Position numbers and translations under genes: made by a program. 64,000 nt of DNA from Thermotoga sp. Mc24 (GTDB lineage: Bacteria; Thermotogota; Thermotogae; Thermotogales; Thermotogaceae), in contig NZ_JSFH01000007.1 in NCBI RefSeq assembly GCF_000784835.1, positions 124,001 through 188,000 of the forward strand, written 5' to 3'. Numbering within the stretch: the stretch's first letter is position 1; each line of letters opens with the position of its first letter. Shown here in pieces: positions 38,642 through 50,445 of the stretch. A model generated the notes under the pieces. That model worked only from the letters and a program-made list of their open reading frames with translations. It was not told the DNA's origin and did no database searches.

Positions 38642-39828
38642 GGATGAGAATAGTACTCGGTGTCAGTAGCGGCATAGCGATATACAAGGCTGTGGATTTG
38701 GCAAGCAAGTTGAGAAAAGAAGGGCATGAACTTCACGTAGTGATGACGCCGGACGCCACCAGAATGATTTCTCCGGTGTTGTTTTCCGCTGTTGGAAACT
38801 GTTCTGTGTATTATGACTGGATGGATGTCAATGATGGATGGATCCCGCACACTGAGCTTTCCAGAACAGCGGACGTGCTCGTTGTTGCCCCCGCGACTGC
38901 GAACACCATTTCAAAGATTGCAAACGGAATAGCGGACAACCTCCTCACGCTCGTCGCTCTCGCTTTTGATAAAGACGCGAAGATTCTTGTTCCCACGATG
39001 AATTACCGTATGTACAACAACAGACTGCTCCAAGAGAATCTTGAGAAGCTAAGAAGAAACGGCTGGTTCATTGTGGAACCCGAAGAAGGGCATCTCGCAT
39101 GTGGTGAAGTTGGAAAGGGAAGGTATCCGGAAAACGAAAAGATAGTCGAAGCGATACACCTTTTGACTTTTCCAAAGAAACTTGCCGGAAAGAGAGTTCT
39201 TATCACCGCGGGACCAACAAGAGAGCGCATAGACGCTGTGAGGTTCATCACCAACGCGAGTTCCGGAAAGATGGGATACGCACTGGCAACGGTCGCAAAG
39301 AGGATGGGAGCCAGTGTTTCTCTTGTATCCGGACCAACATCTTTGAAACCACCTTATTATGTGGATGAGTTTGTGAAGGTGGAAAGCGCTGAAGAGATGT
39401 ACGAAGAGGTGATGAAAAGATTCGAAGATACAGATATCGTGATAATGAACGCCGCTGTGGGAGATTACAGACCGAAGAGAGTTTTTGAGGGAAAGCTGAA
39501 GAAAACAGAGGGCGAGCTCGTTCTCCATCTTGAGAGAACAAAAGATATTCTCAGGGAACTCGGACAGAGAAAATCACACCAGATTCTTGTAGGTTTCGCA
39601 GCTGAGGTCGAAAATTTCGAAGAGAACGCTATGAAGAAATTGAAAGAGAAAAACCTGGATTTGCTCGTTCTGAACGATGCCCGAAAGGCGTTCTCTTCCG
39701 ACAGAGTGGAGGTCTATATATACGACAGGGACGGTTTCAGCAAAAGGATTGATGAAGATGACAAGATTCGTGTGGCTTGCGGTATTCTTGATGTTGTTTC
39801 AGATCTTGCTGGCAGATCACCTTCTTGA
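38638..39828 (+). CDS. coaBC: Bifunctional phosphopantothenoylcysteine decarboxylase/synthase
   Basis: Two middle steps of coenzyme A synthesis. The N-terminal CoaC flavoprotein half (1-185) has [14 protein letters not shown], the active His in [16 protein letters not shown], and the reactive Cys in LACGEVG. The C-terminal CoaB half has [25 protein letters not shown] and the VGFAAE motif. 396 residues. GTG at 38638 (GTGA overlap with rpoZ) or ATG at 38644. The last 70 bases overlap the L,D-transpeptidase gene. Confidence 0.96.
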
Positions 39829-40939
39829 ACTGAAAAGCGTTTCTGAAGATCGTGTGACTCTCTCTGTGAAAAAACTCTACGAAGGAGAAATAACGACTTT
39901 TCTTCTTTACTCCCCAGCGGGATTCGTGTTCCCCGAAAAAGTGAAAAACAGCGATTACACCTTCAAGGTGGATTTTGAAGGTCCCTTCTTTCCGATTGTC
40001 GAAGGCGTGAATTCCTTCGGGAGGAGAATGCACCGTGTATTACCTCAGGTTTTAATGGTACCTCTGGAGAAACCCGAAATAAGAGTGATCTCGGACATAA
40101 AAAACGATGAAGTTCTGGTGTACGTGTTCGTTCAGTCTCCAGAAAATGTGATACCTGTTTCGTTGAACTTGGAGGGGAAGGGATTCAAATTTTTCAATCT
40201 GGAAGGGAAGTGGATCTGCGTTTTCAGTTCCTTTCTTGAAGATGGTGTGCATGAACTGGAAATTACTTTCAAAGGTCCCTACGGTTACACCTTCAACATG
40301 AAGAAAGAAATCTACGTCATAAGACGCGTAGCGGTACCCATGAGAGGGGAGGACGGAGCATTCAACTACACTGTGTTCGCTGAGCACGTTGTGAAGAGAG
40401 GAGAAACACTCTGGAGCATTGCCAATCAATACGGTGTAAGAGTAGGAGACATTGTTCTGATAAATCACCTGGAAGATCCAGACAGGATAGTGGCTGGTCA
40501 GGTTTTGAAGATCGGAAGAATCTATTTCCGGGAAAATCCAGTCACGATAGTTGTTAATCTGTTTTCGTCTAAGCTCGCCCTTTACTACGATGGGGTACTG
40601 CTCAAAGTTTATCCCGTGGCCCTCGGAAGGAGCGATACCACCCCTCCAGGACGTTACTGGATTCTCAGAAAAGAGATAGATCCCGCCCTTTATTGGTTTG
40701 GAGAGTACATATCTCCCAGAACGCCTCTCAACGGACTCGGAACGAGGTATATGCAGTTATCGGATCCCACGTACGCGATACACGGCACCTCGAAACCGTG
40801 GGAAATAGGAAAAAGGATCTCACACGGTTGTATCAGGATGTTCAACAGAGATGTGGAAGAAATCGACGCCTTTGCTGGTGTTGGAACGGAGGTTGTGGTG
40901 GTAAAAGAAGATAAAGAATTTCCCGAAAGGATCTATTAA
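39758..40939 (+). CDS. Exported L,D-transpeptidase with LysM domain (YkuD family)
   Basis: About 393 residues: signal peptide ([18 protein letters not shown]), an unassigned beta-rich region, a LysM peptidoglycan-binding module (VKRGETLWSIANQYGV ... VLKIG) and a YkuD catalytic domain with YAIHGTS and SHGCIRM, the active-site Cys/His motif. It should make or edit 3-3 cross-links or anchor proteins to peptidoglycan. ATG 39758 or 39752 both follow AAAGGA; either way the first 70 or so bases lie in coaBC, an unusually long overlap. It ends at a strong hairpin terminator. Confidence 0.92.
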   Translation: MTRFVWLAVFLMLFQILLADHLLELKSVSEDRVTLSVKKLYEGEITTFLLYSPAGFVFPEKVKNSDYTFKVDFEGPFFPIVEGVNSFGRRMHRVLPQVLMVPLEKPEIRVISDIKNDEVLVYVFVQSPENVIPVSLNLEGKGFKFFNLEGKWICVFSSFLEDGVHELEITFKGPYGYTFNMKKEIYVIRRVAVPMRGEDGAFNYTVFAEHVVKRGETLWSIANQYGVRVGDIVLINHLEDPDRIVAGQVLKIGRIYFRENPVTIVVNLFSSKLALYYDGVLLKVYPVALGRSDTTPPGRYWILRKEIDPALYWFGEYISPRTPLNGLGTRYMQLSDPTYAIHGTSKPWEIGKRISHGCIRMFNRDVEEIDAFAGVGTEVVVVKEDKEFPERIY

Positions 40940-40972
40940 AAAAATGAAAGCGGGGGTCATCCCCGCTTTTTT
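40938..40972. terminator. Bidirectional rho-independent terminator
   Basis: 9-bp stem AAAGCGGGG / CCCCGCTTT (40947-40955 and 40961-40969), loop GTCAT, T-run on plus (40967-40972) and A-run on the other side (40938-40944). It serves both the L,D-transpeptidase and the convergent S1-domain gene. Confidence 0.92.
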
Positions 40973-41345
40973 ACCATGCACTTCTTCTGCCTTTTTTCTC
41001 GAGTCTCTTCTTGTATTCGGAAAGCTTTTGACTGCTTTCTTTCAAGAATCTGGATAGTTTCTTCTCGAAATCCACATTCTTCTTCTCTTCAGATTTCTCA
41101 CTTGTCTTCGGTGTTTCTTCTTCAAGATCTTTCAGGGAAAGTTCCCAGCCACCGTTTCTGGCTCTTCCTATCACCCTCGCGGATATCTCCTGTCCCTCGT
41201 GGAGATAATCTTCGATTCTTTTCACATAGTTTTTGGAGATCTTGGAAATGTGAATGAATCCTCTTTCCCCCCCTTCGATATCCACGAAGGCTCCGTATTT
41301 CACGATCTTAGAAACCTTTCCCTTCACAAGTTCACCAACTTTCAC
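40971..41345 (-). CDS. S1 RNA-binding domain protein (YugI/GSP13-like)
   Basis: 124 residues: one S1 domain at 1-73 (VGELVKGKVSKIVKYGAFVDI ... GFIHISKIS), then a lysine/glutamate-rich helical tail. The layout matches general stress protein 13/YugI, a ribosome-associated RNA-binding protein. GTG at 41345. It lies downstream of rpmE on the same strand with a 33-base gap, and its stop sits in the shared terminator. Confidence 0.9.
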   Translation of the reverse strand: MKVGELVKGKVSKIVKYGAFVDIEGGERGFIHISKISKNYVKRIEDYLHEGQEISARVIGRARNGGWELSLKDLEEETPKTSEKSEEKKNVDFEKKLSRFLKESSQKLSEYKKRLEKKGRRSAW

Positions 41346-41378
41346 AAAAAACCCTCCTCACAAAAGTGATATTGCCTC

Positions 41379-41594
41379 TCAATAGTTGTCTCCGTACTTC
41401 CTCTTGAACTTCTCCACTCTACCCTCCGTGTCCACTATAAGAACGCCTCCTTTTCCACCGGAGGTGTAGAATGGATGACAATTAGAACACACATCGATTC
41501 TTATATTGTCAACCGTCGTGTAAAAAGTATGCTCAGCACCACACGCACACTTAACAGTTACGAGCTTCATCTCTGGATGTATTCCCTTTTTCAC
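41379..41594 (-). CDS. rpmE: 50S ribosomal protein bL31 (zinc form)
   Basis: 71 residues starting KKGIHPEM, with four cysteines (CACG ... CSNCH) that bind zinc, so this is the C+ form of L31. GTG at 41594 follows AGGTGAGGA. A perfect 9-bp inverted repeat lies 32-64 bases upstream of the start codon. Zinc-form L31 genes are sometimes part of zinc homeostasis; no C-minus paralog is in the window. Confidence 0.95.
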
Positions 41595-41625
41595 CGTGTC
41601 CTCACCTCTCCATGAATATTATTAC

Positions 41626-41658
41626 GTCTCACATGCCAAATGGTACCATATGTGAGAC
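41626..41658. repeat. Perfect inverted repeat upstream of rpmE
   Basis: Arms GTCTCACAT (41626-41634) and ATGTGAGAC (41650-41658) are separated by 15 bases that contain the self-palindrome TGGTACCA (41641-41648). It lies between the csp terminator and rpmE, in the rpmE promoter zone (an AT-rich TAATAAT follows on the minus strand). It could be an operator or an RNA hairpin in the rpmE leader. Confidence 0.65.
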
Positions 41659-41686
41659 CAAAAATCAAGTGGAGAAAGAAAATTTA

Positions 41687-41705
41687 AGCCCCCGGACCGG
41701 GGGCT
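41687..41705 (-). terminator. Terminator of csp
   Basis: 7-bp GC-rich stem AGCCCCC / GGGGGCT with a 5-base loop, followed on the minus strand by TAAATTTTC. It lies 12 bases after the csp stop. Confidence 0.85.
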
Positions 41706-41716
41706 GATTCGTCTCC

Positions 41717-41917
41717 TCACTGAACTACTTTCACGTGCGCTGCCTGTGGACCTTTCTTACCTTCCTGAATCTCGAACTCGACAACCTGACCTTCCTTCAG
41801 AGTTTTGAAACCTTCCATTTCGATGGCTGACCAGTGTACGAACACGTCGCCTCCTCCGTCCTTTGTGATGAATCCGTAGCCCTTCTTGGCGTCGAACCAC
41901 TTAACCCTTCCTCTCAT
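41717..41917 (-). CDS. csp: Cold-shock-domain protein
   Basis: 66-residue OB-fold nucleic-acid chaperone. RNP1 is KGYGFITKD and RNP2 is [12 protein letters not shown] at 41917 with AAGGAGG. It has its own promoter and terminator, so it is monocistronic. The leader is about 30 bases, too short for the long thermosensing leader of enterobacterial cspA. From memory T. maritima has two Csp proteins, and this is one of them. Confidence 0.96.
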
Positions 41918-41953
41918 AACACATGCCTCCTTAACAAAAGATGGTACTGCTCA

Positions 41954-41983
41954 ATCATAACACTTCGTAGATGGATATGTCAA
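41954..41983 (-). promoter_or_regulatory. csp promoter
   Basis: On the minus strand, consensus -35 TTGACA (41983-41978), 18-bp spacer, -10 TATGAT (41959-41954). The predicted start is about 30 bases before the csp ATG. Confidence 0.75.
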
Positions 41984-42018
41984 GGTGTAGTAAAATAAGA
42001 ACGTTGAGAGGTGATGAT

Positions 42019-43716
42019 GTGGCGCCGAGAAAATTGAGTGATATCATAAGAAGCCTGGTTTACAAGAAAAATCTGATCTTCGTTCTTTTTCTATCACTCG
42101 TGATAGCTGTACTTGTTTTTATAGTAACCTATTATATTGACAAGAGGAACTGGTACGAGAAACTCGACCTCATCTCGAGCGAGTGGGAAAGAACCATCAA
42201 TCATTATCAGGACGTCCTCGATTTCTTCGCCGACCACAGAGAGGATTTTGAAAATCCTGGGACGATCCTCGAGGTTTTAAAGCTGATTCGTGAACATTTC
42301 GAGGATTACATAGCTTATCCCATCTTTGCCACTCCGGATGGCACTTACTACATCTATCCTCTTTACACGTTTCCTCCTGATTACGATCCGAGAAAAAGAC
42401 CCTGGTACAAAGCTGCTGTCGAAAACCCAGACTCTGCTGTGGTTACTCCTCCCTTCACCCACAGGATTCTTGGAGTAGTCACTTTCGCTATTTCGAGAGC
42501 AATATTTGATGAACATGGAAATCTACTTGGGGTTCTTGGAATCGATATCGTTCCGGAGAAAGTGATGAAAGATCTTCTGCAACCAGGTATGTACGTTCTC
42601 TCGGAGGATGGAACGATCCTTCTTCAAAACGGCGAGATCCATGTGAAACTCGATCCCGAAGACTTTGAAACAAGAGATTACGGTGCGAAGATAAACGCGT
42701 CTGGTGTTGCATTTTTCAGAAAAACAGGGTCCACAATCTTTGTGATCCAGGTACCGCTTCTTGCTTTTCTAAGGAATTCTCTCTTTCACTTAGGCTACGT
42801 GATCGGACTGGCTTTTGCTGTTTCTTTCCCGATCGTTCGAAGAGTATCCAAGTTGATCGACAAAGAACTCAGAGTTCCCCTCGAGGTGCTCTCAAAAGCT
42901 TCAAAAGAGTACCTGCGTTCCAGGATCTTCGACTTAGGGGATACATCTTCGAACATTCTGGAGATCAACCAGCTCATCGATGAAGTCTCCGATATGATCA
43001 CCATCATTGAATCCCAGAGAGAAGAGCTCGAAGCATCCTACGAGGAGCTCGAAGCGTCTTATTCTGAGCTTCAAAAAATGACATGGGAGATAGAGGAGAA
43101 AAGCCGAGCTATCGAAGAAGCGTACGAATTTTTCACCTACAAACTGGTGGATATCGTGGAAGGTTTCGACGAGCCGACGGGGAACCACGTCAGAAGAGTT
43201 CAAGAACTGTCGAAGTTCTTCGCTGAAGAGATGGGCCTCGATGAGGATCTTGTTCACAAAATATATCTGTACGCTCCACTCCACGACATTGGAAAGATAA
43301 AGGTCCCCAAGGAGATTTTGAACAAAAAAGGAAAGCTCACAGCAGAAGAATGGGAAATCATGAAAAAACACACCATCTGGGGTGGAGAGTTGCTCTCCGG
43401 CAGAAAAGAACTGGAAGTTGCAAGAAACATAGCCCTCTACCACCATGAAAATTACGACGGAACAGACTATCCGTTCGGCTTGAAAGGCGACGAGATTCCC
43501 ATAGAAGCACAGATCGTCAAGATAGTCGATGTTTACGATGCCCTGCGCTCAGAAAGGCCCTACAAAAAAGCCTTGTCCCACGAAGAGTCTGTCAGGGTGA
43601 TCCTCGAGGGAGATGGAAGAACATCACCGTCCGATTTTCATCCCAAGCTGATTGAGATTTTCAGAGAAAAACACAAAAAGATCAAAGAAATCTGGGAAAA
43701 AACTTACAGTGAATAA
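42019..43716 (+). CDS. Membrane HD-GYP phosphodiesterase with Cache sensor domain
   Basis: 565 residues: membrane helix near 20-40, an extracytoplasmic Cache-type domain (DPRKRPWYKAA ... VTPPFTHRILGVVTFAISRAI ... GVLGIDI), a second helix near 260, a linker coiled coil rich in E-L-E-A-S-Y repeats, then HD-GYP with LHDIGKIKV and YHHENYDGTDYP. In the last motif the usual GxGYP reads GTDYP, so the GYP glycine is replaced by Asp. Probably a small-ligand-gated c-di-GMP phosphodiesterase. GTG at 42019 lies six bases after GAGAGGTG; the frame is open further up. Confidence 0.88.
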   Translation: MAPRKLSDIIRSLVYKKNLIFVLFLSLVIAVLVFIVTYYIDKRNWYEKLDLISSEWERTINHYQDVLDFFADHREDFENPGTILEVLKLIREHFEDYIAYPIFATPDGTYYIYPLYTFPPDYDPRKRPWYKAAVENPDSAVVTPPFTHRILGVVTFAISRAIFDEHGNLLGVLGIDIVPEKVMKDLLQPGMYVLSEDGTILLQNGEIHVKLDPEDFETRDYGAKINASGVAFFRKTGSTIFVIQVPLLAFLRNSLFHLGYVIGLAFAVSFPIVRRVSKLIDKELRVPLEVLSKASKEYLRSRIFDLGDTSSNILEINQLIDEVSDMITIIESQREELEASYEELEASYSELQKMTWEIEEKSRAIEEAYEFFTYKLVDIVEGFDEPTGNHVRRVQELSKFFAEEMGLDEDLVHKIYLYAPLHDIGKIKVPKEILNKKGKLTAEEWEIMKKHTIWGGELLSGRKELEVARNIALYHHENYDGTDYPFGLKGDEIPIEAQIVKIVDVYDALRSERPYKKALSHEESVRVILEGDGRTSPSDFHPKLIEIFREKHKKIKEIWEKTYSE

Positions 43717-43739
43717 TTGATGTTGAAGTCGAGAACAAC

Positions 43740-43778
43740 TTGACTTTTTCTCATATATATATGTAAAATACATATATA
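43740..43778 (+). promoter_or_regulatory. Promoter overlapped by a perfect palindrome (DUF5320 cassette)
   Basis: -35 TTGACT (43740-43745), 18-bp spacer, -10 TAAAAT (43764-43769). A perfect 10-bp inverted repeat, arms TATATATGTA (43756-43765) and TACATATATA (43769-43778) around AAA, covers the -10 and the start-site side. This is the geometry of a repressor operator. Confidence 0.65.
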
Positions 43779-43790
43779 GGAGGTGAGAAT

Positions 43791-44000
43791 ATGTGGTGGA
43801 GCAGAGGATACGGATGGAGAAGAGGCTGGAGGAGAGGATTCGGTTTTGGAGGAGGACCGTGGTGGGCTTACTACGACTATCCTCCAGTGCCGCCTTCTCC
43901 TGAAGAGGAAAAAGAAATGCTTCTGGATTACAAAAAATACCTGGAGGAAGAGCTCAGATACGTTGAAGAGAGGTTGAGAGAGCTTGAAAACAGGAGGTGA
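43791..44000 (+). CDS. Small Trp/Arg/Gly-rich protein with C-terminal coiled coil
   Basis: 69 residues. The first 25 are W/R/G/F-rich, then a P-rich hinge (YDYPPVPPSPEEE), then a K/E/L helix (MLLDYKKYLEEELRYVEERLRELENRR). This layout occurs in small proteins next to DUF5320 proteins in anaerobes. Function unknown; the tail looks like a dimerising coiled coil. ATG at 43791 follows AGGAGGTG. It sits directly behind the palindromic promoter and four bases before the next gene's binding site. Confidence 0.8.
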   Translation: MWWSRGYGWRRGWRRGFGFGGGPWWAYYDYPPVPPSPEEEKEMLLDYKKYLEEELRYVEERLRELENRR

Positions 44001-44005
44001 GCGAT

Positions 44006-44209
44006 ATGCCAAGGCTCGACAGAACGGGTCCGCTGGGACTTGAGCCGATGACAGGCAGAGGTCTTGGATGGTGCAGGTTCGGTGGTAGCTGGGCGAAACC
44101 CCGGGAATGGTGGAGAGGTTTTGGTTGTGGATGGAGAAGAGGCTGGCTATTTGGAGTGGGCCTTGCCTGGAGACATAGAAGAGGATGGGGATGGAGAGGC
44201 TGGTGGTAA
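44006..44209 (+). CDS. DUF5320-type small protein
   Basis: 67 residues beginning PRLDRTGPLGLEPMTGRGLG, which matches the conserved 'DRTGP.G.GPMTGRG.G' start of DUF5320 proteins, with Cys at 21 and 38 and then a W/R/G-rich tail. These proteins often lie beside MBL-fold hydrolases and dinitrogenase-cofactor-like (NifX/NafY) proteins; their function is unknown, but metal handling has been suggested by context. ATG at 44006 follows AGGAGGTGA. A strong terminator follows the stop by two bases. Confidence 0.85.
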   Translation: MPRLDRTGPLGLEPMTGRGLGWCRFGGSWAKPREWWRGFGCGWRRGWLFGVGLAWRHRRGWGWRGWW

Positions 44210-44211
44210 TA

Positions 44212-44241
44212 TGAAGGGGGTATCAACCCCCTTCAGTTTTT
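44212..44241 (+). terminator. Rho-independent terminator after the DUF5320 cassette
   Basis: 10-bp perfect stem TGAAGGGGGT / ACCCCCTTCA (44212-44221, 44226-44235), 4-base loop, then G and TTTTT. It separates the two small genes from the decayed MBL gene. Confidence 0.92.
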
Positions 44242-44257
44242 GAACGGAGGGAGAAAG

Positions 44258-44764
44258 ATGCGAATACACGTTCTCTGTGATGATTCATCTCGAAATGGAT
44301 TTGAAAGCGAACACGGTTTTTCTGTGCTTGTGGATTCCGTTTTTTTCGATACAGGGAAATCCAATGTGTTTTTCAAAAACGCTCGAAAGCTGGGAATTGA
44401 ACGCCGGAGGATGTGGTCATCAGTCATGGTCACTACGATCACGCAGGGGGCTTTCGTATCTTTCAGGAAAGAGAGTGTAGCTCAGACTGGATCCGAAGTA
44501 TTCCGGAGAAAGATACGCAGGAGCCGATTGGGATGAAATACTGAGAAAGAACGCGGTGAAGCTCGTGATCGAAGGAATCACCGACTTCTGAGATCTTCCG
44601 ATGATGAGATAGAGAAAATCGTGAGGGTCTTCAACGAGCTCGGAGTTGAAACTGTGGTTCCCTGTCACTGCACGGGTGAAAGAGCAGTTTACATCTTCAA
44701 AAGAAAATTTCTCGGGAAAATCATGGATTGCTGTGCAGGTTTGAAATTTGAGGTTTCAAACTGA
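44258..44764 (+). pseudogene. Decayed MBL-fold metallohydrolase (COG1237-like)
   Basis: The remains of one gene are spread over three frames. Frame 1 from ATG 44258 gives MRIHVLCDDS ... FDTGKSNVFFKNARKLGI. The next frame, from about 44404, carries the metal motif VVISHGHYDHAGG. The third, from about 44451, gives YLSGKRV, an in-frame TAG (44478-44480), then DPKYSGERYAGADWDE and a TGA at 44589. The first frame returns at 44597 with VVPCHCTGERAVYIF and the stop at 44762. Three frame changes plus a nonsense codon, and only about 168 residues where I expect around 250, show long decay. The family includes the methanopterin-pathway-like hydrolases. The binding site CGGAGGG is intact. Confidence 0.88.
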
Positions 44765-45917
44765 CGAACTCCGGGAGATGTTTTTCAAGGATTTCCACGA
44801 CTTCCTGATCAAGAGGCATTTTCTTCATGAGAGCTAAGGCTTCTTCTGAATTCATGGCTTTTCTGTAGGGCCTGTCGCTGGTAAGAGCGTCGAACACATC
44901 CGCCACCGCTAAAATCCTGGCAAGGAATGGTATCTCTCCATCTTTCAAACCGAAAGGATATCCAGAACCATCCATTCTTTCGTGATGGTACAAAACCACA
45001 GGGATAGCGAAGAACAGTTCCGGATATTCCCTCAATATGTCTGCACCAACGATGGGGTGTTTTTTGATTTCCTCGAATTCTTCATCTGTGAGCTTTCCGG
45101 GTTTGTTCAAGATGTGTTCTGGCACAGCGATCTTTCCTATGTCATGGAGTCGGCCTGCTATCCCAAGCTCTTTAAGTTCTTCCTTGTTAAGTCCCAATTT
45201 CTTTCCTAAGAGAACAGCGATTCTCGAGGTGTATTCCGAATGAAGAGCTGTATAGTGATCTTTCTTATCTATAATTTTGATCAGCCTTTCGAGTCCTTCT
45301 GTTTCATAGTGAAACTTCAAAACAGACCTCACAAAAATGGAATGAATGATGAGCATGATTGCGATCCCTCCAAGTGAACTCCAGAAAGAAACTGCAAACC
45401 ATTTGTTGCCGGGCTTACTCTTGTACTCTAAGCCCCAGAACGTCTTCTTTCCTCCCTTTCGAAATTCCACAGAAGCACCGATTGAGTTCAAAATACCAGC
45501 TACGTCCCATTCTACATACGCTGTTCTGTCAGCTATCATTTCTTCTCCCATGCTGTCGTATATTTTGAACAGTGCCCAGAGTCTTTCTCCATCCGATTCT
45601 ACTCGGTAGTATTCTTCTTCGAAACCCGGAGATTGATTCAGGATCTTTATTTCCTTGATGTATGGATCTAAAGACTTTATTTCCTCAAAGGCTTCTTCGA
45701 TGAATTCTTCATCGCTTTTTTCTATCGCTTCTTTCAGTTCTGTCCACTGAAAGTATCCACTAGATATGAGATCTACAGACCGCTGAACGATGGTTTTGAA
45801 AACTTCGAGTTGGTAGTCTTCCAGTTTCTTCTGGTAGTGGATCTGAACAGAAGCCACTCCAAGGAAAATGAGCATTGCGACGACTAAGAAAATCCATTTG
45901 TAACGTTTCAGATACAA
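44721..45917 (-). CDS. Membrane HD-GYP phosphodiesterase
   Basis: 398 residues: membrane helix at 8-27, an extracytoplasmic sensor region (about 30-180) with no family I can name, a second helix near 180-205, then HD-GYP with RLHDIGKIAV, YHHERMDGSGYP and ADVFDALTSDRPYR, all canonical. Predicted c-di-GMP phosphodiesterase. TTG at 45917 with GGGGGGATGA upstream. Its 3' end runs 44 bases into the convergent MBL pseudogene. It follows the DUF996 gene by 21 bases, so they may be co-transcribed. Confidence 0.9.
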   Translation of the reverse strand: MYLKRYKWIFLVVAMLIFLGVASVQIHYQKKLEDYQLEVFKTIVQRSVDLISSGYFQWTELKEAIEKSDEEFIEEAFEEIKSLDPYIKEIKILNQSPGFEEEYYRVESDGERLWALFKIYDSMGEEMIADRTAYVEWDVAGILNSIGASVEFRKGGKKTFWGLEYKSKPGNKWFAVSFWSSLGGIAIMLIIHSIFVRSVLKFHYETEGLERLIKIIDKKDHYTALHSEYTSRIAVLLGKKLGLNKEELKELGIAGRLHDIGKIAVPEHILNKPGKLTDEEFEEIKKHPIVGADILREYPELFFAIPVVLYHHERMDGSGYPFGLKDGEIPFLARILAVADVFDALTSDRPYRKAMNSEEALALMKKMPLDQEVVEILEKHLPEFVSLKPQISNLHSNP

Positions 45918-45938
45918 AAATCATCCCCCCGAGTTTTT

Positions 45939-46445
45939 TCAAGCCGTTTCTTCGGATGGATTTGAGAAAAAGCCAACTATCGTGAGAATATCACCCACGA
46001 ACATGAGTATGAAACCCACACCGAAAACAACAAGAAGGATCGCTCCCCATTTGTAGAAAGACGCGGCGGTGTTGAAGACTGATATTTTCAAACTTTCGGC
46101 GAGCATCCTGTAAGCTTTCACCTTGTAAACGAGGGCTATTATTCCGAGGACAATGATGGTTATGAAGCTGACTAAGGTCACACCACCAGCGAACAGACCG
46201 CCCGCGAAGAGTGAAGCGACGAGCGAAACAGAGAAGATCACAGAAACGATCAACAGCAAAACAGCGGGTATCAAGAGGTAGTTGAAGATTCTTCTTTCCC
46301 CCACCTGCTGTGAGATGTTGTAGATGCCGATGAGAAACAGTATGAGCCCCACAAGGGAAAAGATCCAACCTACCACCGGTACCGCACCAAACAGTTCGAA
46401 TATCATCCCTACCCCCGCTAACGTTTTTGCAGTTGAAAGGTTCAT
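45939..46445 (-). CDS. DUF996 membrane protein
   Basis: 168 residues with five to six hydrophobic segments; starts MNLSTAKTLAGVGMIF, resembling the opening of DUF996 proteins known from archaea and Thermotoga. Function unknown. ATG at 46445 with GGAGGTGATACG; the frame is open to 46478, but those residues are in the ElyC-like gene's end. Four bases separate it from that gene. Confidence 0.8.
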   Translation of the reverse strand: MNLSTAKTLAGVGMIFELFGAVPVVGWIFSLVGLILFLIGIYNISQQVGERRIFNYLLIPAVLLLIVSVIFSVSLVASLFAGGLFAGGVTLVSFITIIVLGIIALVYKVKAYRMLAESLKISVFNTAASFYKWGAILLVVFGVGFILMFVGDILTIVGFFSNPSEETA

Positions 46446-46449
46446 CGTA

Positions 46450-47163
46450 TCACCTCCACTTGAAATTGTACCAGACAAGCCCGATCCACTCGTAGATGGC
46501 TCGTGAATTCAGATAGAAAGAGGTGGCATTCGGAAGAAAATCTATGAACTCCGGATCTCCAAAGTAGAATCCAGCGGGGTACGGTGTCACACTCTGGAAA
46601 AATCTCTTAAAAGTGAAAACAGCCCTTCTCATGTGGATCGAATCGGTTACCAGAATGATGGGTACATCTCCTATTTTTTCCCTTGTGAAAAGGGCGTTTT
46701 CGTACGTGTTTCTCGATCTGTCTTCGACGGTGATCTTTTCCTCTGGAATACCCAGCGAAACAAGGTAGTCTTTCATTATCAGCGCTTCTGGTTTCAGCCC
46801 AGTTAAGCTACCACCGGTTACGAGTATGGGTAGTTTTGTTTTATGATAGATCTGAACACCCGTCATGAGCCTTCTCAGAGTGGCATCACTGAGGGTGTCA
46901 CCTGCTTTCGTGTTTCTCTCCACACCGCCGCCGAGAACAACGATCACGGCATCGTCTGGAAGTGTCACGGGAACATCGAGGTTTTTCTCAAGGGGCCAGA
47001 GAAAGAGAAACTCTCCCACGTAACTGCTGAAAAGATACACGATCGCTGCCAAAACCAAGAGGAACCATCTCGCCTTTTTGAAAAAGAAACTCCCCACGAT
47101 CAGCAGGAGTATGAAAAGACCTGGTGTTACCAGAAACGCTCCGATGACCTTTTGAAGGAACAT
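46450..47163 (-). CDS. DUF218/YdcF-ElyC-like membrane protein
   Basis: 237 residues: two N-terminal membrane helices, then the DUF218 Rossmann-like domain with VVLGGGVERN, TGG near 115 and EDRSRNTYENA, the usual conserved E-x-x-S-x-N-T. ElyC and SanA relatives affect envelope polysaccharide carriers (enterobacterial common antigen, peptidoglycan), so an envelope role is likely. ATG at 47163 with GGAGGTGAAAG. Confidence 0.9.
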   Translation of the reverse strand: MFLQKVIGAFLVTPGLFILLLIVGSFFFKKARWFLLVLAAIVYLFSSYVGEFLFLWPLEKNLDVPVTLPDDAVIVVLGGGVERNTKAGDTLSDATLRRLMTGVQIYHKTKLPILVTGGSLTGLKPEALIMKDYLVSLGIPEEKITVEDRSRNTYENALFTREKIGDVPIILVTDSIHMRRAVFTFKRFFQSVTPYPAGFYFGDPEFIDFLPNATSFYLNSRAIYEWIGLVWYNFKWR

Positions 47164-47225
47164 TCTTTCACCTCCACGTTTATGATTTTAAACAATTGTC
47201 GATAATCATAGAGGGAGGATGAAAA

Positions 47226-48383
47226 ATGAACGTCTGGAAGGTTCTGGGAAGGTACAACAACGTGCTCGTCCTCTCGAAGAAAAACAGCATCCTCATACTT
47301 GAAATAAACGGAAAGGCACCGAAGCCGGGAGATAGTGTGAGGGTCTGGAACAACAGAGTTGTGACCGGAAGGGAGCTCAAAGCGAAGCTCCTGGCACATT
47401 TCGATGAGGAGCTCTCTCTCAAAGTTTTTAAAGTGCCAGGCCTTCTGGAATTCTTGCACGACATTTCCCACGGGTTCGATAAGAAGTACGTTCACTTCGT
47501 GAAGTTGTTTGTAAAGCATCTCGTTCCATCTCGTTTCCTCAGGATGAACGATGAGGAAAAGAAGATCATAATGAAGTCTTTCCCTGAGGTTTTCGAGTCG
47601 GGACCTTCTAACGTTCGAATCAGGTTTTCTGTTAAGAACTTCTTCGAGTATGTTCGAAAGAACTTTCCAATCAATGGAAAGATAGACGAAGAGGCTCTCA
47701 GAAGAGTCGTCACTTTGAAAAGCCCCATCCTTTCCACCGAAGAGTACGATGTCTATCAAATGAAAGAATCACTTTCTAAGGGATTCTTAGGGAAAAACTA
47801 CATGGCAGTGCCCCTCTCTGGAAAGCATTTGATTGTTGTTTTCAGAAGAGGAAACTTTCCGTTTGTTGAATTCGGAGTCAAAGAGTATCCGGATCTGACA
47901 TTCTTCGAGGATTTTGCGAACGACAAAGTTGTGGTTGAGAAAAAAGAAAATGGGTGGACCCTCATCTGGAGAGACAGAGAAGTGATGGAGTTTGAACTTC
48001 CGGATAAGGAACTCTTCCCAAGACCTGAAAAACTGGTGGATAACGATCTTTCAGATGCCATTTTTCTTCTGAACAATCTTCTAGAAAAAAACGTCAGGTT
48101 CGCTTCGATGCCTTCTTTCGGTATTCAGGAGATGTGGTGGGAGAAGGACAACAACAGGGTGATTCTTGTTGTTAACACCGTGCGGTTCGGCAGGGTCGTT
48201 GCCGACGTAATTTTGGAGGGCAGATCCCTTTCGGTGAGATTCTACGTTGAAAAAAACACCGAAGAATTGTCCGACCACAGCGAAGAGCTTCAGAAAGAAT
48301 TCGAAAGACTGGGATTGGTCGCGCATGTCTTCTTTTTGAGAAAGGATCCAATGAACTGGGAGGGATTCAATGCGTACGGATGA
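47226..48383 (+). CDS. FliK-like C-terminal-domain protein (YlqG-like)
   Basis: 385 residues, soluble. The last 90 (FGIQEMWWEKDNNRVILVVNT ... VRFYVEKNTEELSDHSEELQKEFERLGL) match the style of the flagellar hook-length control domain: a beta pair followed by a helix in which 'L...L...L...G' ends the unit. In Firmicutes a gene of this kind (ylqG) precedes a FlhB-C-like gene (ylqH), and the same order is seen here, which supports the call. The first 290 residues are not recognised. ATG at 47226 with GGGAGGATG. It overlaps the next gene by 14 bases. Confidence 0.65.
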   Translation: MNVWKVLGRYNNVLVLSKKNSILILEINGKAPKPGDSVRVWNNRVVTGRELKAKLLAHFDEELSLKVFKVPGLLEFLHDISHGFDKKYVHFVKLFVKHLVPSRFLRMNDEEKKIIMKSFPEVFESGPSNVRIRFSVKNFFEYVRKNFPINGKIDEEALRRVVTLKSPILSTEEYDVYQMKESLSKGFLGKNYMAVPLSGKHLIVVFRRGNFPFVEFGVKEYPDLTFFEDFANDKVVVEKKENGWTLIWRDREVMEFELPDKELFPRPEKLVDNDLSDAIFLLNNLLEKNVRFASMPSFGIQEMWWEKDNNRVILVVNTVRFGRVVADVILEGRSLSVRFYVEKNTEELSDHSEELQKEFERLGLVAHVFFLRKDPMNWEGFNAYG

Positions 48384-48630
48384 GATAAAGAAAGCGGTGG
48401 CTTTGAGATACGATCCCGTCAGAACGAGTGCGCCTGAGGTAGTGGCAAAGGGTGTGGGTGAAGTTGCAGAAAGGATAATCGAAATGGCCAAAAAGTATGG
48501 CATACCAATAGAAGAAAGACCGGATATCATAGACGATCTTTTGAGACTGGATCTTTTCTCAGAGATTCCCGAAGAGATGTATCTTGTGATTGCTGAGATA
48601 TACGCCTTTCTGAAAAGATACGACAAATGA
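48370..48630 (+). CDS. FlhB C-terminal-domain homolog (FlhX/YlqH-like)
   Basis: 86 residues. KKAVALRYDPVRTSAPEVVAKGVGEVAERIIEMAKKYGIPIEERPDIIDDLL matches the cytoplasmic domain of FlhB/EscU export-switch proteins. The self-cleaving NPTH is absent (the aligned place reads RYDP), as in other free-standing homologs. It has no membrane part. It may substitute for a FlhB tail or act apart from the flagellum. It overlaps the FliK-like gene by 14 bases. Confidence 0.88.
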   Translation: MRTDEIKKAVALRYDPVRTSAPEVVAKGVGEVAERIIEMAKKYGIPIEERPDIIDDLLRLDLFSEIPEEMYLVIAEIYAFLKRYDK

Positions 48631-48632
48631 AA

Positions 48633-48658
48633 AGAGGTCCCCAGAGGTGGGGACCTCT
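48633..48658 (-). terminator. Terminator after tRNA-Pro (and the FlhB-like gene)
   Basis: 10-bp perfect stem AGAGGTCCCC / GGGGACCTCT with a 6-base loop. On the minus strand it is followed by TTTTCATTTG, so it mainly ends tRNA-Pro; the plus side lacks a T-run. Confidence 0.85.
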
Positions 48659-48661
48659 GTG

Positions 48662-48738
48662 TGGTCGGGGCGACTGGACTTGAACCAGCGACCTCTTGCG
48701 CCCCATGCAAGCGCGCTAGCCACCTGCGCCACGCCCCG
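48662..48738 (-). tRNA. tRNA-Pro (GGG)
   Basis: 77 nt with encoded CCA. Acceptor CGGGGCG/CGCCCCG with the C1-G72 pair typical of bacterial tRNA-Pro, discriminator A, anticodon stem CTTGC/GCAAG, loop ATGGGGC with T33 and anticodon GGG, and T-arm GGTTCAAGTCC. Very GC-rich stems fit a hyperthermophile. Confidence 0.96.
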
Positions 48739-48748
48739 CCGTCTTTAT

Positions 48749-48776
48749 ATTTTATCACAGGATATGAAGATTTCAA
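48749..48776 (-). promoter_or_regulatory. tRNA-Pro promoter
   Basis: On the minus strand, -35 TTGAAA (48776-48771), 16-bp spacer, -10 TAAAAT (48754-48749), ending about 10 bases before the tRNA-Pro 5' end. It lies inside the 5' part of the tRNA-Glu relic. Confidence 0.65.
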
Positions 48777-48827
48777 CTATGGATTTTCAGTCCGGAGATC
48801 GGGATTCGGTCCTCTGTGGAGTTGTCA
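48752..48827 (+). pseudogene. Decayed tRNA-Glu copy
   Basis: 48781-48827 aligns without gaps to the last 47 bases of the intact tRNA-Glu (48932-48978): 37 of 47 match, and all ten differences are transitions. The anticodon loop reads TTTTCAG (anticodon TTC), the anticodon stem keeps most pairs, and the acceptor and T stems are broken. The 5' half (48752-48780) is only faintly similar (CACAGGATA against CATAGGATA). It should not fold as a working tRNA. Confidence 0.75.
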
Positions 48828-48863
48828 GATGTGTTGGTATCTGGGAAAATTTAACTCTCCCAC

Positions 48864-48892
48864 TTGATTTTCTTTCCGATATGGTTTAAAAT
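48864..48892 (+). promoter_or_regulatory. tRNA-Glu promoter
   Basis: -35 TTGATT (48864-48869), 17-bp spacer, -10 TAAAAT (48887-48892), 11 bases before the tRNA-Glu 5' end. Confidence 0.7.
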
Positions 48893-48903
48893 TACCCTTG
48901 GAT

Positions 48904-48978
48904 GGCCCCATAGGATAACGGCCAGTCCGCCGGATTCTCAGTCCGGAGGTCGGGGTTCGATTCCCCGTGGGGCTGCCA
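48904..48978 (+). tRNA. tRNA-Glu (CTC)
   Basis: 75 nt with encoded CCA. Acceptor GGCCCCA/TGGGGCT (G1-U72 wobble), discriminator G, anticodon stem CCGGA/TCCGG, loop TTCTCAG with anticodon CTC, T-arm GGGGTTCGATTCCCC. Followed by a strong terminator. Confidence 0.96.
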
Positions 48979-48995
48979 GGCAATATCCTCAGAAC

Positions 48996-49029
48996 AGCCC
49001 GGTCGAAATGGCCGGGCTTTTTGTTTTTT
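48996..49029 (+). terminator. Terminator of tRNA-Glu
   Basis: 9-bp stem AGCCCGGTC / GGCCGGGCT (one G-T wobble), loop GAAAT, then TTTTTGTTTTTT. Confidence 0.93.
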
Positions 49030-49350
49030 ATAAGTAGTATTCAAGAATAATTGTGTGGAGTACGAGGCATCCCTTTTGGTTTGTCACACTTGGTTTCGAT
49101 ATAGACACACTAAAGAAAGTGGTGAAGAGACTTTTCAAATGTGGTTCTCAATCCAAAGACAAATTCCTTGGCAAATCTTGGCTTACCATATTTGAAGCCA
49201 GATCTCTATTCTTTTTTCTACCACCAAGCACAGTGACTTTTTGTAGTCGGATGGCTTTCCTAAATTCTATTAAGAACAGCACACAAAAAACCGGTGGGGA
49301 TTTTTTCATGTTCATTAGAACGCATGTTTTCAGAAACACTTTGATTTAAT
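49030..49350. other. Gene-free stretch, possibly decayed coding sequence
   Basis: About 320 bases after the tRNA-Glu terminator with no ribosome binding site, hairpin or convincing gene. Open frames on both strands (for example 49053-49349 plus and 49148-49339 minus) lack a start signal and do not look like Thermotoga proteins; runs of basic and aromatic residues on the minus strand (such as YGKPRFAKEF) recall a broken transposase, but I cannot place it in a family. Confidence 0.45.
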
Positions 49351-49380
49351 AACAGGAGGGATGATCACGGGAAAGAAAGT

Positions 49381-49965
49381 GTGTTTTCTGGCCTGTTTGA
49401 TCTTCTCAGCAGTGCTGTTTTTTGCAATAGCGGTGGTATTATTGATGGAACTCAGGAAACTGACACGCTTTCAGAAACGGCGAGAGGACTTGTCGATCAG
49501 CTTCAAGCAGTGATAAGCAACACATCTTCGTTTGAAATACCAAATCCCGATGGTTCTCCAATCGAGTACAAGAACTGGGCAATGAGATTTCTGGAAGGCG
49601 CCTCTTCTATGATCTATATTCTAAGCGATTTTGAACAACTCGTGGAGGCAGAGGGCTGGCAGTATCTCTACTATGTATTTCAGGCAAGTTTCTCCACTCC
49701 TGCCCCCGTCACATCGATCGAAGTCGAGGGAACAACGGAATATACCACAAAGTTCATCCCATTTCTCCTTAACAACAAACCAGACTTTGTTAAGGATACC
49801 TATTTCCTTTCTCTGAAGTTCACAACGGAGGATGGAACGACAACGGCGGTTCAATGGCCGATGATATTGGTGAATGGAAAGTGCTACTTCTTCTCGTTAG
49901 AAATCGTACATACGAATGAAGGAACCGAAGTCAGACTGTACCCGAAACCACAGCCTATATTGTGA
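49381..49965 (+). CDS. Exported hypothetical protein, N-terminus probably frameshifted
   Basis: The body (about residues 15-194: ETDTLSETARGLVDQLQ ... YPKPQPIL) is soluble, beta-rich and unrecognised. A better start is the ATG at 49361 behind AACAGGAGGG, which gives a basic then hydrophobic signal (MITGKKVCFLACLIFSAVLFF) in another frame. That frame meets the body frame at a run of six T (49418-49423); a seventh T would join them as ...LFF-CNSGGII, a lipoprotein-like signal and Cys. As written the gene lacks its export signal. Possibly a slippage variant or an error. It converges on the DUF192 gene with no gap. Confidence 0.6.
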   Translation: MFSGLFDLLSSAVFCNSGGIIDGTQETDTLSETARGLVDQLQAVISNTSSFEIPNPDGSPIEYKNWAMRFLEGASSMIYILSDFEQLVEAEGWQYLYYVFQASFSTPAPVTSIEVEGTTEYTTKFIPFLLNNKPDFVKDTYFLSLKFTTEDGTTTAVQWPMILVNGKCYFFSLEIVHTNEGTEVRLYPKPQPIL

Positions 49966-50445
49966 TCATTTCTCTATTAAAACCCTGCTCCTCACACCGA
50001 ATCCGTGCCTTTCGAAGAAGCCTTTCTTCACCTCGAGAGCGTATCTGAAAGGACCTGGCGCGTAGTAGATCTTGCAGGGTTCTTCTCTGCACGGCTCCAT
50101 CTCCTGAATGGAGAATATGACACCGCTTCTATCTATGAAAGCGATCTCGAGGGGAACGTACGTGTTCTTCATCCAGAAACCCAAGCGAGTGTCTTCTTCA
50201 AAAACAAAGAGCATCCCGAAATCGTCCGGGATGCTCTTTCTGTACATCAAACCAATGGAACGCAGGGTGGGGGTGTTCGCTATCTCCACATCCAGTTTGA
50301 GTGATTTTTCTCCATCGGTAATCACTATCTTTCCTTTTGGGAACTTCACCCTGTCGCTCTGTCCAGATGCAACGACCACAACAACTGTCCCGATTGTAAT
50401 CAGAATCGGCAGAAGAAACTTTTGAAATTTCAACCCCCACATCAC
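49966..50445 (-). CDS. DUF192 exported protein
   Basis: Up to 159 residues: an N-terminal signal or anchor helix ([19 protein letters not shown]) and a DUF192 domain with the family pattern [25 protein letters not shown] ... [17 protein letters not shown]. Function unknown; several bacterial DUF192 proteins are periplasmic. Starts are stacked: GTG 50445, ATG 50442 and TTG 50433; the GAGGTG at 50444-50449 favours the last. The first codons overlap the xylA stop, so it is co-transcribed with xylA. Confidence 0.88.

Follow-up and report, generated by a model that had tools for sequence, protein, structure and literature searches.

Decay of a TM1679-Type Hydrolase Gene beside a Retained DUF5320 Gene Pair in Thermotoga sp. 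Mc24, and a Candidate Palindrome Regulon in Thermotogota

Main Findings

Analysis of the window, a stretch of 64,000 nucleotides from the genome of Thermotoga sp. Mc24, revealed that a segment lying 3' of two small DUF5320 genes (DUF5320a and DUF5320b) is the remnant of a gene for a metallo-beta-lactamase-fold (MBL) hydrolase, orthologous to TM1679 of T. maritima (PDB 3h3e). This segment very probably makes no product, and it is highly likely that the gene is dead, that the hydrolase was a dispensable accessory, and that the DUF5320a-DUF5320b pair is a self-contained unit with a role of its own. In the proposed course of events, a TM1679-orthologous hydrolase would once have stood 3' of this unit, in which two small genes would be enclosed by a terminator and a promoter bearing a palindromic operator; the loss of the hydrolase would then have left the unit standing, as appears to have happened in two other Thermotoga lineages. 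Features of the locus are collected in Table 1.

Table 1. Positions of the features at the DUF5320-hydrolase locus, numbered from the first base of the window.
Feature	Position	Strand	Basis
HD-GYP/Cache-type sensor protein, 5' of operon	41971..43716	+	ORF list; start codon uncertain
Sigma-70-like promoter, TTGACT-18-TAAAAT	43740..43769	+	Sole promoter-like match in 43600-44850
Perfect 21-bp palindrome ATATATGTAAAATACATATAT, proposed operator	43757..43777	.	Overlaps -10 element
DUF5320a, 69 aa, Pfam positions 39-99 (C-terminal half)	43791..44000	+	PF17253, E 2.8e-11
DUF5320b, 67 aa, Pfam positions 1-61 (N-terminal half)	44006..44209	+	PF17253, E 8.9e-10
Terminator-like hairpin, then GTTTTT	44212..44235	+	Two overlapping matches; 0.9 expected from shuffles
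Pseudogene, TM1679-type MBL-fold hydrolase	44258..44764	+	Three-frame reading, alignment, synteny, protein matches
TAG replacing the orthologues' Trp codon	44478..44480	+	Frame reading and alignment
Junction of 250-base deletion relative to G001 and G003	44584..44585	+	DNA matches and alignment
Second HD-GYP-type gene, convergent	44721..45917	-	ORF list

Genomes and Locus Compared

The Mc24 genome (G000; 1,823,483 bases in a 12-contig draft) was compared with those of six relatives (G001-G006), making up a genus set of seven Thermotoga genomes, and the phylum was surveyed in 103 Thermotogota genomes. The hydrolase of G001, a T. maritima-like genome, matches PDB 3h3e (the Tm1679 chain) with an E value of 8.7e-171 and PDB 2p4z, a protein which we take to be from a Thermoanaerobacter relative, with an E value of 8.8e-35. 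What the window copy shares with these two proteins is orthologous sequence and place, together with the HxHxDH and PCHCTGE motifs; unlike TM1679, it is broken and lacks residues 111-197.

The operon is preceded by a gene whose product we take, from its motifs, to be an HD-GYP/Cache-type sensor, and a gene of this type is likewise found upstream of the operon in G001, G004, G005, and G006. On the other side, the end of a convergent gene (HD-GYP-type, again our naming from motifs) overlaps the final 44 bases of the hydrolase remnant. The ORFs flanking the remnant on either side are open. The convergent HD-GYP gene, whole in the window, is reduced in G001 (L026:2418-4093) to its C-terminal part, next to an ORF for a TnpB-like transposase.

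Decay of the Hydrolase Gene

Decay of an MBL-fold hydrolase at this place, as claimed by the sequence-only reading, was borne out by lesions relative to orthologues, by synteny, and by four remnant pieces that match a TM1679-type protein (E values of 1.9e-28, 1.8e-26, 3.8e-14, and 8.0e-6); given these E values and the synteny, the matches are not due to chance. Of the checks that the reading had suggested, the search for an intact orthologue at the same position in related strains was successful, such a gene being present 3' of the DUF5320 genes in G001, G002, G003, and G005, and the search for a second intact copy was not, as a protein search of the G000 genome found no other TM1679-type copy at E ≤ 0.001. 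A replacement hydrolase elsewhere in G000 was rejected at the same threshold.

A single ORF of about 255 aa, as in TM1679-type hydrolases, is absent from the segment. Frame 1 begins with MRIHVLCDDSS and resumes at the end with LRSSDDEIEKIVRVFNELGVETVVPCHCTGE, up to a TGA at 44762-44764; frame 3 contains PEDVVISHGHYDHAGG; and frame 2 contains LSYLSGKRV, a stop, and LRLDPKYSGERYAGADWDEI. The frame-1 ORF measures 98 aa, and the frame-2 ORF (44277-44480) terminates at the TAG. Reading of all frames therefore recovered the three frame changes and one TAG that had been described from the letters alone.

The individual lesions were called by aligning the segment to its G001, G002, and G003 orthologues. 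The first two are single-base losses, near 44395-44403 and near 44440-44448; 9 bases have been lost in frame immediately 3' of the TAG; and the third frame change is a deletion of 250 bases. DNA matches that are adjacent in the window at the deletion junction lie 250 bases apart in both G001 (match ends 1661979 and 1661728) and G003 (1009736 and 1009485). Because the 1 + 1 + 250 lost bases are a multiple of three, the last remnant piece returns to frame 1. The earlier lesion count was right as to the shifts and the TAG but overlooked the size of the large deletion and the 9-base loss.

The surviving pieces correspond to TM1679-type residues 1-45, 50-61, 66-73, 83-110, and 198-255, and the short gaps in coverage before residue 83 are shifted or lost stretches. 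HxHxDH, the first metal motif of these hydrolases, is present as SHGHYDH in frame 3, and a 43-aa piece reaches 20.7 bits (E 4.3e-4) against Lactamase_B, below the cut-off of 22.7. Orthologue residues 111-197 (87 residues) are gone, along with the later histidine motifs GCSHRG and GGFHL, which fall inside the 250-base deletion and presumably carry metal ligands in the MBL fold. With these 87 residues and two conserved histidine motifs missing, no frame trick could restore the enzyme, and programmed frameshifting across the remnant is ruled out by the deletion.

The dN/dS of the remnant is 0.30 to G001 and 0.26 to G003, compared with 0.13 for the entire gene when G001 and G003 are paired. Under a strict count, only three non-synonymous and four synonymous changes are private to G000, and these few changes indicate that the decay is young. 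If dN/dS is assumed to have been 0.12 before death and 1 afterwards over the 151 codons, a rough value of about 0.37 for the G000 branch would suggest that the gene has been unconstrained for approximately the last quarter of that branch.

The DUF5320 Pair and Its Transcription Signals

Both small proteins belong to Pfam DUF5320 (PF17253), scoring 44.9 and 40.1 bits against a gathering cut-off of 27. Unlike the Pfam family model, the domain is split over two genes (43791-44209) with the C-terminal half first, and in several other genomes both halves occur in one protein. The DUF5320a ORF is open in all seven Thermotoga genomes, and a DUF5320b ORF with the N-terminal motif in six; G005 has at this place a shorter ORF without that motif. 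Loss of DUF5320b from G005 was considered and rejected, since a full ORF is found on another contig under the same palindrome.

DUF5320a has dN/dS values of 0.08 to G001 and 0.15 to G003 (0.15 between G001 and G003), and DUF5320b, with only about 43 synonymous sites, has values of 0.31 and 0.53 (0.26 between G001 and G003). On the G000 branch, DUF5320b has acquired five non-synonymous versus three synonymous changes. One substitution, G13E, is unique to the window, the other 31 of the 32 pattern-matched copies having G; G6R was discarded as a sign of decay because R is common at that position (9 of 32 copies, the window's included). DUF5320b in the window may thus be slackening, judged on few sites.

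The sigma-70-like promoter is a weak match when taken alone, as shuffles of the searched region average 1.2 matches, and it is aligned in G001, G002, and G003 with a spacer of 16 bases. In the window, the spacer (43746-43763) is 18 bases, two longer, the difference being an additional TA in the region of the left arm. The hairpin sits between DUF5320b and the hydrolase remnant and, judging from its sequence, probably acts as a terminator. A like hairpin with a T tract is found in six of the seven genomes (G000, G001, G002, G003, G004, and G006). It is absent in G005, where the hydrolase lies directly 3' of DUF5320b, so that one shared transcript is possible there. Promoter and hairpin bound the DUF5320 pair like a separate transcription unit, which would explain why the death of the hydrolase gene has done the pair no damage. 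The description of the cassette as having lost an enzyme partner goes too far, as it presumes a partnership that finds no support here, and the terminator-like hairpin separates the pair from the hydrolase.

Recurrent Loss within Thermotoga

Four of the seven Thermotoga genomes have an intact hydrolase; in two it has decayed, and in one it is trimmed to both ends. In the trimmed case (G004), nothing but the start context and the last codons is left, without a protein match: DUF5320b is followed by the hairpin and a start-like context, to which the final hydrolase codons are joined immediately. In G006 (contig C59), the first hydrolase codons are kept, the HxHxDH stretch is lost, and later pieces lie in several frames. 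G006 is a 150-contig assembly in which contigs 59 and 133, sharing 127 identical bases, each carry a part of the locus. This genome also has another hydrolase (45% identical), on contig 16 next to a DUF5320/NifX/MinD cluster, and its second HD-GYP gene looks broken too.

A midpoint-rooted tree of the upstream HD-GYP protein from six of the seven genomes (G001 left out) paired G000 with G003 (100/100), G004 with G002 (83/86), and G006 with G005 (87/91). Three separate losses are supported, because each has an intact nearest relative in this tree. These sequence comparisons suggest that the hydrolase was lost separately in three Thermotoga lineages, the last two with modest support. The statement of the sequence-only reading that the small ORFs and their promoter are intact agrees with our results, as they are open and kept in the window and kept again in the two other lineages that lost the enzyme. 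Its view that the small proteins have a use of their own also gains ground, the pair, the palindrome, and the hairpin having outlived the hydrolase in G004 and G006. Since the pair survives hydrolase loss in separate lineages, it probably functions without the enzyme.

Alternative Explanations

It is very improbable that the gene is really intact and only appears broken through sequencing or assembly error, even though the assembly is a draft in 12 contigs and sequencing errors often take the form of isolated one-base losses. For the two one-base losses such error is possible in an assembly of one strain; it could hardly account for the 250-base deletion, which is accompanied by a nonsense substitution and a 9-base loss, and raised dN/dS in the remnant pieces, with open genes on either side, also argues against it. 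Slightly less probable still is that the pieces remain in use, as a shortened product or through recoding across the shifts to a working small protein. The pieces are recognizable, the last frame equals the first, and the frame-1 ORF has 98 aa; yet the stretch with two histidine motifs is missing, a TAG stands in the path, and dN/dS is up.

Decay of the whole cassette, with DUF5320b next in line and the intact small ORFs reflecting nothing but lag, deserves more consideration and is nevertheless unlikely. The five non-synonymous and three synonymous changes in DUF5320b on the G000 branch, together with G13E, fit this explanation, but the counts are small and the dN/dS of DUF5320b is also 0.26 between G001 and G003. 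In addition, DUF5320a is constrained, neither the palindrome nor the hairpin has been lost, and G004 and G006 have the pair still in place after loss of the enzyme. A dead hydrolase gene beside a DUF5320 unit with its own role therefore stays the preferred reading.

DUF5320 Neighborhoods across Thermotogota

DUF5320 is present in 68 of the 103 phylum genomes, and a hydrolase match (E ≤ 1e-20, window remnant included) in 59. Both occur in 49 genomes, and 19 of the 68 have DUF5320 without the hydrolase; one counted among these 19 (G039) has a more distant MBL-fold hydrolase in its DUF5320 locus (L094). A hydrolase lies within 10 kb of DUF5320 in 10 of the 68 DUF5320 genomes, a count that G000 enters by its remnant only and G006 by its remnant and the intact pair. 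As about 1% would be expected with one copy of each in approximately 2 Mb, the link is real but a minority one.

The neighbors of DUF5320 were then tabulated for 72 loci, many of them cut by contig ends and with family names judged from the sequences (the PadR model was run on the genus Thermotoga). NifX-like proteins were the most frequent, at 35 loci, followed by MinD-type ATPases with ferredoxin motifs (34), PadR-family regulators (14), COG0731-like radical SAM proteins (11), and the hydrolase (10). That DUF5320 genes often neighbor such hydrolases was therefore overstated, the usual neighbors being NifX-like proteins and MinD/ferredoxin ATPases. The operon in the window differs from this pattern in having no adjoining gene of either type, and neither was found within positions 39000-50000.

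A Palindrome at DUF5320 Operons

At up to two mismatches, the 21-bp palindrome has its sole site in the G000 genome at the DUF5320 operon. It is found at the DUF5320 operon in all seven Thermotoga genomes, in which a reversed control pattern has no site, and also in other families of the phylum; for example, G009 and G010, which belong to another family, have perfect sites in front of their DUF5320 operons. G005 has a second palindrome, which precedes a different DUF5320 gene with MinD/ferredoxin ATPases after it. An apparent pair of palindromes in G006 was reduced to one site at the split locus, where the two contigs share their identical bases.

With up to three mismatches, ten genomes gave 23 sites for the 21-bp pattern and 23 for the reversed control; such sites are noise genome-wide, and weak sites are therefore meaningful only by their place before DUF5320. 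In 109 stretches upstream of DUF5320, the best site had at most three mismatches in 41, compared with 0.13 expected from mononucleotide shuffles, the eight perfect sites of Thermotoga being not independent in this test because the pattern was derived from that genus. A relaxed pattern, ATATATG-N7-CATATAT, set after these results had been seen, is perfect in 34 of the 72 DUF5320 loci. Genome-wide it gave 60 perfect matches (59 sites when that of G006 is counted once) in 41 of the 103 genomes, versus one for the reversed pattern, and of these 60, at least 35 are found, going by a partial gene list, no more than 450 bases upstream of a DUF5320 match.

Sixteen of the remaining 25 perfect matches were examined, one of which is the doubled G006 site. 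Two (L212 and L225) precede MinD/ferredoxin ATPases, three (L213, L219, and L215) precede radical SAM genes, two (L214 and L216) precede an FAD oxidoreductase gene, and one (L218) separates an FAD oxidoreductase gene from the transporter-like gene that comes after it, with a class-I padR next in line. A further site, L217, is of ambiguous placement. Judged by position, the genes at L213, L214, L215, L216, L218, and L219 may also belong to this regulon. Six other perfect sites (L220, L221 twice, L222, L223, and L224) were rejected as members, as they are inside unrelated genes and chance-like. At L215 (1190-1516, other strand), a small ORF with two ferredoxin-type motifs and a glycine/arginine-rich tail lies between the palindrome and the radical SAM gene. 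Overall, the palindrome heads many DUF5320/MinD-ferredoxin/NifX operons of Thermotogota and would mark a candidate regulon.

A Candidate PadR Regulator

The 14 DUF5320 loci with a padR gene fall into three classes by recognition helix, which were drawn after the sequences had been seen. Class I (GxMGx[IV]YR) has a perfect site in six of six loci (L089, L091, L092, L114, L120, and L137), and the other two classes in none of eight. A class-I PadR is present in all seven Thermotoga genomes, away from the DUF5320 locus; that of G000 lies at G000:C10:95182-95541 and has the helix IPGIGHMGNIYRVL.

PadR matches of at least 100 bits, which are not equal to class I, occur in 36 of the 41 genomes with a perfect site versus 33 of the 62 without (Fisher p 0.0002, relatedness ignored). 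The idea that class-I PadR occurs only where the palindrome does was dropped because of these 33 genomes, and no match of at least 100 bits was found in five perfect-site genomes (G032, G033, G047, G062, and G070). Among 57 PadR stretches at this threshold, 45 carry GxMGx[IVL]YR, 10 depart from it, and 2 gave no helix.

In seven genomes from another family of the same order (L205-L211), a class-I padR is found not near DUF5320 but at a distance of 15-57 bases from the gene for a TM1679-type hydrolase, which ties regulator and hydrolase a second time. No palindrome was found before these padR-adjoining MBL genes in the seven genomes, the start being wrong or unclear in L205, L207, L208, and L211.

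PadR operators are reported to be inverted repeats of ATGT and ACAT, which in the case of LmrR are about 8-10 bases apart (PMC3506622). The Thermotoga palindrome shares with the operators of LmrR and bcPadR1 an inverted ATGT/ACAT core near the promoter, and differs from the LmrR operator in its spacing of 5 between ATGT and ACAT (PMC3506622). With arms that match and a spacer of 5 instead of 8-10, PadR binding is a matter of inference, and the palindrome would be the repressor operator of the unlinked class-I PadR of G000.

Functional Implications

As to function, there is about an even chance, by analogy, that the setting of DUF5320 is iron-sulfur or metal-cluster handling. This role is proposed because its usual neighbors resemble the orange-protein (ORP) system and the NifX/IssA family; since the window operon is without the MinD/NifX parts, an iron-sulfur role for it would follow by family. 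Orp3 and Orp4 of the ORP system are ATPases of the MinD type. The phylum's DUF5320 clusters, with their MinD-type ATPases with ferredoxin motifs and NifX-like proteins, have a parts list similar to that of the ORP complex and Mrp/ORP of Desulfovibrio vulgaris (PMC6345978). Mrp/ORP is reported to be able to hand Fe-S clusters to ORP complex proteins in vitro (PMC6345978), and the NifX/IssA family is described as binding iron-sulfur material (PMC5524996). No identification of Orp5 as a DUF5320 protein was found in the passages on the ORP system. The ATPase and NifX parts are absent from the window. Moreover, orp operons have a sigma-54 promoter, whereas the sites at DUF5320 operons are palindromic, and that of the window overlies a promoter of sigma-70-like type.

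A wider proposal is more tentative and falls somewhat short of an even chance: a Thermotogota DUF5320 regulon, defined by ATATATG-N7-CATATAT and a GxMGx[IVL]YR PadR, would serve anaerobic iron-sulfur/metal-cluster handling, with the hydrolase tied to the regulator's signal. The parts of such a system would probably include MinD/ferredoxin ATPases, NifX-like carriers, a radical SAM protein, and an FAD oxidoreductase. Going by gene placement, the MBL hydrolase may make or destroy the signal of the PadR regulator, in which case its repeated loss in Thermotoga would be regulon rewiring.

In the accessible portions of the open-licence literature, nothing was found on this operon, its palindrome, or its regulator, and the papers containing the word DUF5320 concern plant heat-shock factors and archaeal G-quadruplexes. 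As for TM1679 and TM1681, one source names them solely in a tabulation of genes next to mal operons (PMC2246101).

The pseudogene itself is ordinary, and its worth lies in the repeated loss that spares the DUF5320 unit and in the palindrome. Hydrolase loss on seemingly separate branches of one genus amounts to a small natural experiment: each loss spares two tiny proteins, a palindrome, and a hairpin, so that the function of DUF5320 is separable from that of the enzyme. In addition, the palindrome connects DUF5320 with genes for ATPases, NifX-like proteins, and radical SAM proteins across much of the phylum, and it names a testable candidate regulator, which offers a handle on the DUF5320 family.
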